From: Oerskovia paurometabola
GTDB taxonomy: Bacteria; Actinomycetota; Actinomycetes; Actinomycetales; Cellulomonadaceae
DNA length: 64,000 nucleotides
Assembly: GCF_016907365.1 (NCBI RefSeq)
Contig: NZ_JAFBBV010000001.1
Location: forward strand, 2,976,001 to 3,040,000
Direction of reading: 5' to 3'
The position numbers were made by a program, and so were the translations under genes. The notes below the pieces were generated by a model. The model did not search any database. It was not told where the DNA came from and saw nothing but the letters and a program-made list of their open reading frames with translations. Of this stretch, positions 3,141 to 4,883 are shown in pieces (the stretch's first letter is position 1; each line of letters begins with the position of its first letter).

Positions 3141-3187
3141 CGCACGGCCCGTGACCGCCCGCTGTGCGGGTGGTCACGGGCCGTGCG
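3141..3187. terminator. Bidirectional terminator hairpin
   Basis: A 22-base arm (3141-3162) pairs with 3166-3187 with one G-T pair and a 3-base loop. It separates the converging Nudix and SMR genes. Confidence 0.8.
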
Positions 3188-3199
3188 GTGGCGCGGTCT

Positions 3200-3580
3200 C
3201 TACGGGGTGCCGGTCCCGGACGCCTCCGCCCCGCGTCCGGGCGTCGCAGGTTTCTTCGCGGGGCCGTGCGGGACGAGCTTGAGCCCCACGACCGCGGCGA
3301 TGATGCCCGCGATGAAGACGACCTTGCCGACCGAGGCGGACTCGTCACCGGTGAGGATCGCGTAGGACACGGTCAGGGCCGCGCCGATCCCGACCCACAC
3401 CGCGTACGCGGTGCCGATCGGGATGTGCTTGACGGCCCAGCCGAGCCCGCCCATGCTGACGGCGAGCGCGACGAAGAAGACGATCGACGGGACGAGCTGC
3501 GAGAACCCGTCGGACTTGCCGAGGGCCGTGGCCCAGACGGCCTCGAACACGGCGCTGACGAGCAGGACGATCCACGGCAT
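3200..3580 (-). CDS. SMR family exporter, second subunit (Gdx/SugE-like guanidinium exporter)
   Basis: A 126-residue protein with four membrane helices and a hydrophilic C-terminal tail of about 20 residues. Glu13 in helix 1 (VFEAVWA) is the substrate- and proton-binding Glu of the family, and PIGTAYAVWVGIGA in helix 3 is the usual SMR signature. It starts one base after the stop of the first SMR gene, so the two are co-translated and probably form a heterodimer, as in YkkCD-type pairs. The riboswitch upstream makes guanidinium the most likely substrate; quaternary ammonium drugs are the alternative. Confidence 0.9.
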   Translation of the reverse strand: MPWIVLLVSAVFEAVWATALGKSDGFSQLVPSIVFFVALAVSMGGLGWAVKHIPIGTAYAVWVGIGAALTVSYAILTGDESASVGKVVFIAGIIAAVVGLKLVPHGPAKKPATPGRGAEASGTGTP

Positions 3581-3581
3581 G

Positions 3582-3896
3582 TCAGCTCACCACCTTGAGG
3601 CCGACCACGGACCCGACGAGCAGGACCAGGAGGAGCCCGCGCAGCCAGGTGAAGGTCTCGGAACCGGTGATGAAGCCCCAGACGACCGTGAGCGTCGCCC
3701 CGATGCCGACCCAGACCGCGTACGCGGTGCCGGTGGGCAAGGAGGTCATCGCCCAGGCGAGACCGACCATGCTCAGCGTCAGGGAGACGAGGAAGACGAC
3801 CGTCGGCCGTCTGCGCGTGAAGTTCTCGGATGCGGACAGCGCCGTCGCCCAGACGGCCTCCAGCATCCCGGAGAGGACGAGGACAACCCAAGCCAT
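3582..3896 (-). CDS. SMR family exporter, first subunit (Gdx/SugE-like guanidinium exporter)
   Basis: A 104-residue four-helix SMR protein with the essential Glu13 (MLEAVWA) and the PTGTAYAVWVGIGA segment. It is about 50% identical by eye to the second subunit, so the pair arose by duplication. The ATG at 3896 has a ribosome binding site, GAGGGG (3906-3911), nine bases upstream. This site follows directly on a guanidine-III type aptamer (3913-3952). Known families: Gdx exporters swap guanidinium for protons and often sit behind guanidine riboswitches. That these two carry guanidinium is inference from the riboswitch and family. Confidence 0.92.
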   Translation of the reverse strand: MAWVVLVLSGMLEAVWATALSASENFTRRRPTVVFLVSLTLSMVGLAWAMTSLPTGTAYAVWVGIGATLTVVWGFITGSETFTWLRGLLLVLLVGSVVGLKVVS

Positions 3897-3926
3897 GACA
3901 AGTAACCCCTCTGAGTCAGTCTTGTC
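3897..3926 (-). promoter_or_regulatory. Predicted start-site occluding helix (expression platform of the riboswitch)
   Basis: CUUGUC, directly before the ATG (3897-3902), is exactly complementary to GACAAG inside the aptamer (3921-3926). If these six bases pair, the ribosome binding site at 3906-3911 is held in the loop. Ligand binding needs GACAAG within the aptamer fold, which would free the start site. This predicts an ON switch; it is inference from complementarity. Confidence 0.5.
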
Positions 3927-3952
3927 CGTGCGGGTACTGCTCCCTCGTCCGC
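3913..3952 (-). ncRNA. Guanidine-III riboswitch aptamer (ykkC-III class)
   Basis: Read on the minus strand, the 40 bases match the short Thermobifida fusca guanidine-III aptamer as I remember it, in all its conserved blocks: GGACGAGG, GUACCCG and GGACAAGAC in the right order and spacing. Helix P1 is GCGG with CCGC, where T. fusca has CCGG with CCGG. Helix P2 is GAG-CAG with CUG-A-CUC (one bulged A), where T. fusca has GCGCCG with CGGCGC. Both helices keep pairing with different bases, which supports a real structure. It sits directly upstream of the ribosome binding site of an SMR exporter pair, the expected target. A covariance model search would settle it. Confidence 0.85.
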
Positions 3953-4094
3953 GCGTCCCTCGTCGGAGGAACTTGGTACCAGCGTACCGACATCGTGTCG
4001 TCTTGGCCAGGGATCGTCGCGTCTACCACCGTGGCTTCACACGGCCACCCCTCGCTCCCCGACCGGCCTCCACCTTCGGGTACGGCCGTCCCGC

Positions 4095-4100
4095 CAGGAT
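4095..4100 (+). promoter_or_regulatory. Leaderless -10 element of the methyltransferase gene (CAGGAT)
   Basis: CAGGAT, six bases, then ATG at 4107. No ribosome binding site is visible. Confidence 0.45.
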
Positions 4101-4106
4101 CGTCGG

Positions 4107-4883
4107 ATGTCGACCGCCTTCGAGCCCTCCCCTCCCGACGACTACCTGATGCGCCTCGCCGCCTCCGACCTGGGCCGGGGCTACAAGGCTCTCGCCACGG
4201 CCCAGCTCGACCTGCACGACGGCCTCGACGTGCTCGACCTGGGCTGCGGCCCGGGTGCCGACCTGCTCGCGTACGCGAAGGCGGTCGGGCCGACCGGGAG
4301 CGTCCTCGGGCTCGACCACGACGCCGACGCCGTGGCCCGGGCCCGCGAGCGGGTCAGCGACCTGGCCACCGTCCGGGTCGAGGAGGCGGACGTCCACCGC
4401 CTCGACCTCGCCGACGGCAGCGTCGACCGCGCACACACCGACAGGGTGCTCCAGCACGTGGCGCATCCCGGGCTCGTCCTCGCGGAGACGTTCCGGGTCC
4501 TTCGCCCCGGCGGTCGCGCGGTGCTCGCGGAGCCGGACTGGGGCACGCTCGTCGTCGACGGCCCCGACGCCGCGACGAGCGACGCCTACGGACGCTTCGT
4601 CGTCGAGCAGGTCGTCCGCAACGGCAGGATCGGGCGCCGGCTCACCGGCCTCGCCGAACGGACGGGCTTCACGGTCGAGCGCGTCGTCCCCGTGACCGCC
4701 GTCTTCCGCGACGTCCGCGAGGCGGACAGGGTCCTGGGCCTGGCACGGGTCGCCCGCCGAGCCGTCGAGGCGGGATACCTGCGCGAGCGTGCGGGGGCAC
4801 GCTGGACCGAGCACCTCGCGACGCAGCCGTTCTTCGCGTCGGTGACTCTCTTCGTGGTCGTGGCCGACCGCCCGCCGGCCTAG
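4107..4883 (+). CDS. Class I SAM-dependent methyltransferase
   Basis: A 258-residue protein with the SAM-binding glycine motif VLDLGCGPG at residues 42-50, an acidic residue after strand 2 (GLDHD) and the later FRVLRPGGRAVLAEPDW segment typical of the Methyltransf_11/UbiE-like group. No membrane segment or signal peptide. The acceptor substrate cannot be predicted. It stands alone between the SMR riboswitch and the efe operon and ends at its own hairpin. Confidence 0.85.
   Translation: MSTAFEPSPPDDYLMRLAASDLGRGYKALATAQLDLHDGLDVLDLGCGPGADLLAYAKAVGPTGSVLGLDHDADAVARARERVSDLATVRVEEADVHRLDLADGSVDRAHTDRVLQHVAHPGLVLAETFRVLRPGGRAVLAEPDWGTLVVDGPDAATSDAYGRFVVEQVVRNGRIGRRLTGLAERTGFTVERVVPVTAVFRDVREADRVLGLARVARRAVEAGYLRERAGARWTEHLATQPFFASVTLFVVVADRPPA

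Follow-up and report, generated by a model that had tools for sequence, protein, structure and literature searches.

A Guanidine-III (ykkC-III) riboswitch was identified directly upstream of two adjacent SMR-family exporter genes in Oerskovia paurometabola, within a 64,000-nucleotide stretch of contig NZ_JAFBBV010000001.1 (positions 2,976,001 to 3,040,000; hereafter the window). Very likely, it acts at the level of translation as an ON switch of a guanidine exporter with two subunits, with a hairpin that covers the ribosome-binding site (RBS) and the AUG in the absence of guanidine. We also lean towards a wider reading, in which a single expression platform is common to actinobacterial Guanidine-III riboswitches: GUC directly before the AUG (often as UCGUC, UUGUC or CUUGUC) and the AUG itself would pair with the core strand GACAAGAC, this strand would be conserved both for guanidine binding and for hiding of the start, and the clades would slide the register (CUUGUC in the window) and keep the hairpin. 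Sequence comparison and computation reveal the aptamer, its pseudoknot, a hairpin exclusive of the aptamer fold and, across the class, an excess of pre-AUG bases complementary to GACAAGAC. The analysis adds a concrete proposed lock in the window, and evidence that this lock is a local version of a start-site element found in about half of the examined Guanidine-III leaders. The interpretation given in an initial annotation of the window, which had proposed the riboswitch and a lock at its RBS, was partly supported.

The covariance search (cmscan) matched RF01763 at 3977-3910 on the minus strand over model positions 1-67 of 67, with 38.4 bits (E 0.00018) against a curated gathering score of 36, in agreement with the class assignment of the initial annotation. 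This was the sole Rfam match at the gathering threshold in the window, where no Guanidine-II (mini-ykkC) match was found by the same scan, and the only match reported for the whole genome. The conserved blocks ACGA, GUACCC and GACAAGAC are all present, as had been noted before, together with P1, P2 (with one bulged A) and the J1/2-L2 pseudoknot, a layout which we take to be that of the published Guanidine-III structure. The aptamer lies in the same-strand 5' leader of a guanidine-related gene, and 13 bases separate its end from the start of SMR1. The interval originally assigned to the riboswitch (3897-3952) spans J1/2 to the start codon, but omits P1 (3972-3955). Judged by its sequence the riboswitch is genuine, the original observation is confirmed, and both guanidine binding and switching of the leader are predicted. 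Matches to RF01763 were found in 107 of the 221 genomes of the family, including seven listed genomes of the same genus, and in 192 of the 396 genomes sampled at the order level.

Both helices had been described as pairing with changed bases, and this holds in the comparison. Base changes in P1 preserve pairing within the genus (by eye, in the alignment listing of the genus), and three positions tested in P2 were paired in 224, 227 and 243 of 244 leaders. The pseudoknot can be added to them. Its outer pair was C-G in 213 of 236 distinct leaders, G-C in 21, U-A in one and unpaired in one, that is, formed in 235. The window displays the two-sided change from C-G to G-C, with strands GCGG/CCGC compared with CCGG/CCGG in most relatives. 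No pseudoknot appears in the structure line reported for the Rfam match, so this change earns no credit from the model, and this may contribute to the low score of the window aptamer. The window resembles the class in its full-length match, conserved blocks, pseudoknot and place before SMR genes, while it differs in its low score, its G-C pseudoknot subtype, the deletion of two model positions before GACAAG and the use of CUUGUC/GACAAG in the RBS-covering hairpin.

The complementarity between CUUGUC (3902-3897), the last six bases before the start codon, and GACAAG (3926-3921) of the aptamer core, which the initial annotation proposed as a lock of the ligand-free RNA, is exact. Folding predicted this lock and widened it to a hairpin of 12 pairs with a two-base bulge and an AGAG loop, consisting of a CUUGUC/GACAAG half and a UGACUC/GGGUUA half. 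The hairpin was both the minimum free energy (MFE) and the centroid structure of segment 3926-3891 (-12 kcal/mol) and was also part of the MFE structures of longer transcripts. In 3984-3881 the forced free-state hairpin reached -37.3 kcal/mol and forced P2 -25.8 kcal/mol; the pseudoknot and the ligand are not counted in these values, and in their absence the lock is favoured over P2 by the folding model. Since the 5' arm is composed of the aptamer core strand and the 3' strand of P2, the lock and the aptamer are mutually exclusive folds. A ribosome site covered in a structure exclusive of the aptamer, as expected of a translational ON switch, was obtained by computation only. The fold of 3926-3891 had a z-score of -2.41, six of 200 dinucleotide shuffles being as stable or more; with the Shine-Dalgarno sequence fixed, an equal hairpin arose from two of 213 spacers of other genes and from 2% of 5000 shuffled spacers. 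For the window alone, the case against chance is moderate. CTTGTC precedes the start in 11 of 279 parsed leaders, seven of them from the same genus.

In the proposed free state, the core strand GACAAGAC, together with the P2 3' strand, would pair over 12 bp with the ribosome site and the pre-AUG bases, hiding the Shine-Dalgarno sequence and the start. In the bound state, guanidine would lock GACAAGAC into the aptamer of P1, P2 and pseudoknot and leave the ribosome site free. Because the aptamer is made first in the cell, the choice between these states would probably be kinetic. For the Guanidine-III class, the aptamer, where it is placed and an ON mechanism at the level of translation are already known (PMC12186494; publications are cited throughout for the excerpts drawn on here). 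Poor conservation is described as usual for expression platforms (PMC7266159). Guanidine-II riboswitches are similar in that the ligand was proposed to free the ribosome site (PMC10907184), but differ in consisting mainly of two identical stem-loops (PMC7266159). The start-site element was not met in the literature covered, which did not extend to the primary papers on the class, and its absence from print is not claimed.

The initial annotation had suggested close relatives as a check on the complementarity. All seven genomes of the genus pass it, but the whole stretch from GACAAG to the ATG is identical in them; therefore, the genus says nothing about the lock, and the neighbouring genera are informative. 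Three of the four switch leaders of the next genus (L105, L107 and L109; L numbers denote loci) retain CUUGUC despite a changed or one-base-shorter spacer. Hairpins of the same shape are built from other bases, around GAC, AGAC and GUCU, GUC, in L106 of the next genus and in L098, L100, L101 and L108 of a third genus.

For the class-wide comparison, 293 loci gave 279 parsed and 244 distinct leaders. Twelve of the 175 loci L001-L175 (L019, L029, L031, L095, L097, L099, L102, L110, L111, L118, L140 and L144) and two of the 118 loci L196-L313 (L208 and L262) could not be parsed. The latter 118 loci are among the matches listed in a collection scan, with record titles considered for 80 of them, and the order-level loci comprised 30, some of them already in the set, plus 40 further places taken from the listed matches. 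GTC stood directly before the start in 133 of the 244 distinct leaders versus ten of 213 other genes of the same genome, and in 64 of 116 switch leaders versus 17 of 501 neighbouring genes at loci with named records. The fit extends to bases farther upstream: in the 133 leaders, positions -5/-4 next to GTC were TC in 42, CT in 22 and TT in 15. The element was shared by SMR targets (125 of 229) and by other targets (eight of 15, assigned by homology; no clear Shine-Dalgarno sequence is present in L254, L284 and L291, whose starts are therefore doubtful). Among 20 Gdx-type genes lacking the switch, only one had GTC before the start, a partial control because, judged by sequence, 17 of them fall into another SMR subgroup. 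Two of these controls (L349 and L353) have a misplaced start; their upstream ATG is also without GTC, and both were excluded from the energy test. No hidden switch was detected in six of the 20 control loci searched at lax Rfam thresholds, and the genomes of all 20 are absent from the family-level RF01763 matches (221 genomes, stricter filters). These distributions indicate that GTC tracks the switch, not the gene.

The energy tests used subsets of the leaders: 222 with 22-36 bases from core to start, 207 distinct ones, and 196 or 195 with ATG. The duplex of GACAAGAC with positions -6..+6 had an energy of -4.53 in 196 switch genes versus -2.90 when their last six bases were shuffled, and of -0.39 in 127 other genes and -0.48 in 18 switch-less Gdx-type genes. 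Two of 299 other letter permutations of GACAAGAC performed better, both with similar GAC repeats. The register that fits most leaders is GACA.A.GAC / GUC.A.UG(UC), in which the AUG itself is paired; it had 75.7% of cells paired in the 222 leaders, compared with 22-47% for nine slid registers (-4 to +5). The clade of the window uses a shifted and longer register, GACAAG / CUUGUC. In ensemble folds of 243 leaders, the pairing probability of positions -3..-1 was 0.27 with the P2 3' strand, where the second GAC lies, and 0.20 with GACAAG; that of the AUG with GACAAG was 0.21, and the block GGACGAn reached 0.02. When the P2 3' strands were permuted between leaders (n=207), the hairpins became weaker, with a mean of -8.50 versus -9.38 for the own strands, and none of 300 permutations was as good. 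Of the four variable pairs, only +9/-5 exceeded shuffles (0 of 1000). A test for covariation between -5/-4 and the bases that follow the second GAC gave 19 matches versus 13.3 permuted (p 0.037), and no weight is placed on it.

Several points weigh against the proposed lock and its class-wide form. GTC is missing in 111 of the 244 leaders, and outside Actinobacteria only two of seven leaders carry it, among the leaders with titles considered; the claim is restricted to Actinobacteria for this reason. The leaders are related by descent, so the counts are not independent, and the background start codons were set by a simple rule rather than curated. When only -8..-1 was considered, switch genes did not significantly exceed the 18 Gdx-type genes without a switch (p 0.08). 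The core strand is invariant, hence two-sided covariation cannot be shown for it, and the pairs +8/-4 (227 of 1000), +10/-6 (253) and +11/-7 (977) were not above shuffles. The core block GGACGAG came out as a favoured partner too, to a lesser degree in most ranges; together with the frequency of its complement CUCGUC, a common 6-mer (18 leaders), this means that the GGACGAG strand may contribute. No such hairpin was found in L163 and L164, which share the pseudoknot subtype of the window. Finally, the -30..-1 regions of 42 of 213 other genes fold as stably as that of the window, an unexceptional raw energy in a GC-rich genome.

This last count and the shared descent of the leaders would also suit an explanation without pairing, in which the pre-AUG GUC is an inherited or start-context preference and hairpins follow from GC-rich sequence. 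A serine at codon 2 was tried as evidence for pairing of AUG-UC and rejected: AGY codons were absent (0 of 115), but another early serine in the same genes was equally biased (one AGC in 193), therefore the codon bias gives no support for pairing. We nevertheless regard this explanation as unlikely, considering the rarity of GUC in both gene backgrounds and in switch-less Gdx-type genes (subject to the subgroup difference given above), its presence before unrelated switch targets, the better fit of the own P2 strands and the neighbouring genera, which keep the shape of the hairpin rather than its sequence. Equally improbable is that the riboswitch acts mainly through mRNA stability, the folded aptamer stopping RNase E scanning, with a minor role for the RBS hairpin, which would leave the excess of anti-core bases exactly before the AUG unexplained; the two modes can act together.

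It is very doubtful that occlusion relies on other pairings, namely GUACCC with GGGUUAC at the ribosome site, as also suggested by the initial annotation, or the core GGACGAGG with CCUCGUCC in codons 6-9, although both can be drawn and the latter is in the MFE structure of a longer transcript. The GUACCC duplex of the window is fairly strong (-5.6 kcal/mol, equalled in 6-8% of 195 leaders) and switch genes were above background genes in two ranges out of three (p 0.004 and 0.0002). However, they did no better than their own shuffled sequences (p 0.07, 0.24 and 0.48), the mean pairing probability of the ribosome site was 0.017 with GTACCCG versus 0.196 with the P2 3' strand (243 leaders), and in the predicted fold of the window the partner of GGGUUA is UGACUC of P2. 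The coding-region pairing was rejected, as 21% of synonymous recodings were as good and its mean percentile was 0.61 in 244 leaders.

Some leaders displayed further peculiarities. A core variant, GACACGAC, replaces GACAAGAC in L104, L151, L167 and L173, and its altered base occupies the position that has no partner in the class-wide start-site register. Another variant, a doubtful one, occurs in L156. In L218, L233, L237, L270, L276 and L285, 48-65 bases separate core and start, CGTC precedes the start in four of the six, and some have an extra inverted repeat (by eye); the first four are Streptomyces or Kitasatospora records. Guanidine-III also precedes hydrophobic proteins of 84-99 aa with a start like VVQVxGSLLxLAxF that do not match SMR1 (L038, L047, L057, L084, L091 and L291), acetyltransferase-like proteins (L159, L171 and L296, by eye; none with GTC before the start) and a His-rich protein of 396 aa (L103). 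L361, L362 and L363 encode SMR1-related exporters without a detectable switch, with pre-start bases GCC, GCC and ACG.

The target had been named as a Gdx-like pair, which the analysis corroborates. The two adjacent SMR genes both match PF00893, SMR2 starts one base past the stop of SMR1, and their positive-charge (Arg/Lys) biases are opposite (Table 1), with loop limits placed by eye on alignments to a solved SMR structure. The best PDB chains were 6wk5 for SMR1 (E 5.2e-21) and 8vxu for SMR2 (E 5.7e-20), whose SMR chains are presumably the guanidinium exporter Gdx-Clo. The best NCBIfam family was PRK11431.1 SugE with 86.3 and 92.2 bits, under the equivalog cut-off of 126, therefore the pair is called Gdx-like and not a certified SugE equivalog. 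Adjacent SMR genes of opposite bias are the pattern of antiparallel heterodimers, and in both respects the pair resembles paired Gdx exporters (PMC9574504); it differs in falling below the SugE cut-off, and guanidine export and heterodimer formation are predictions here.

Upstream of the operon, a 210-base gap, which on the minus strand leads into the aptamer, is bordered by a divergent open reading frame (4107-4883, plus strand) resembling a methyltransferase by eye. TACGCT is a possible -10 element, which would place the transcript start about at P1; its TANNNT is kept in the seven genomes of the genus while the inner bases vary, and a consensus scan of 3150-4120 found no sigma-70-type site. 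The same scan found no terminator-like site. A long, nearly perfect inverted repeat without a T run was seen by eye after SMR2 (3186-3141, GCACGGCCCGTGACC...GGTCACGGGCCGTGC); it is absent from the consensus-scan listing of 3150-4120 and is possibly the operon terminator.

Table 1. Features of the riboswitch leader and exporter operon in the window.
Feature	Position	Strand	Evidence or remark
Possible promoter -10 element TACGCT	3981..3986	-	sequence
Guanidine-III (ykkC-III) aptamer, RF01763	3910..3977	-	cmscan full length, 38.4 bits
P1 hairpin GUUCCUC-CGAC-GAGGGAC	3955..3972	-	fold; genus variants keep pairing (by eye)
Pseudoknot 5' strand GCGG, start of block GCGGACGAG	3949..3952	-	partner 3933-3930
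P2 5' strand GAGCAGU	3936..3942	-	partner ACUG-(A)-CUC 3920-3913; cmscan alignment
Pseudoknot 3' strand CCGC in L2	3930..3933	-	partner 3952-3949
Conserved strand GACAAGAC	3919..3926	-	bound state (predicted): aptamer core; free state (predicted): 5' arm of RBS-covering hairpin
Predicted expression platform GACAAG-ac-UGACUC / agag / GGGUUA-CUUGUC, 12 bp	3897..3926	-	MFE fold and centroid; excludes P2
Shine-Dalgarno stretch AGAGGGG	3906..3912	-	half in hairpin loop, half in stem
Anti-core element CUUGUC adjoining the AUG; its last three bases are the class-wide GUC	3897..3902	-	leader counts
SMR1, Gdx-like exporter subunit, 104 aa	3582..3896	-	PF00893 E 5.1e-20; bias -2
SMR2, Gdx-like exporter subunit, 126 aa	3200..3580	-	PF00893 E 8.7e-21; bias +4

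In about half of the 244 leaders, a three-base signal can be read beside the start codon. Within a very short leader, this signal would connect the binding of the ligand with access to the start codon. It allows predictions at the level of single bases for a class whose mode of switching is merely outlined in the literature drawn on here.
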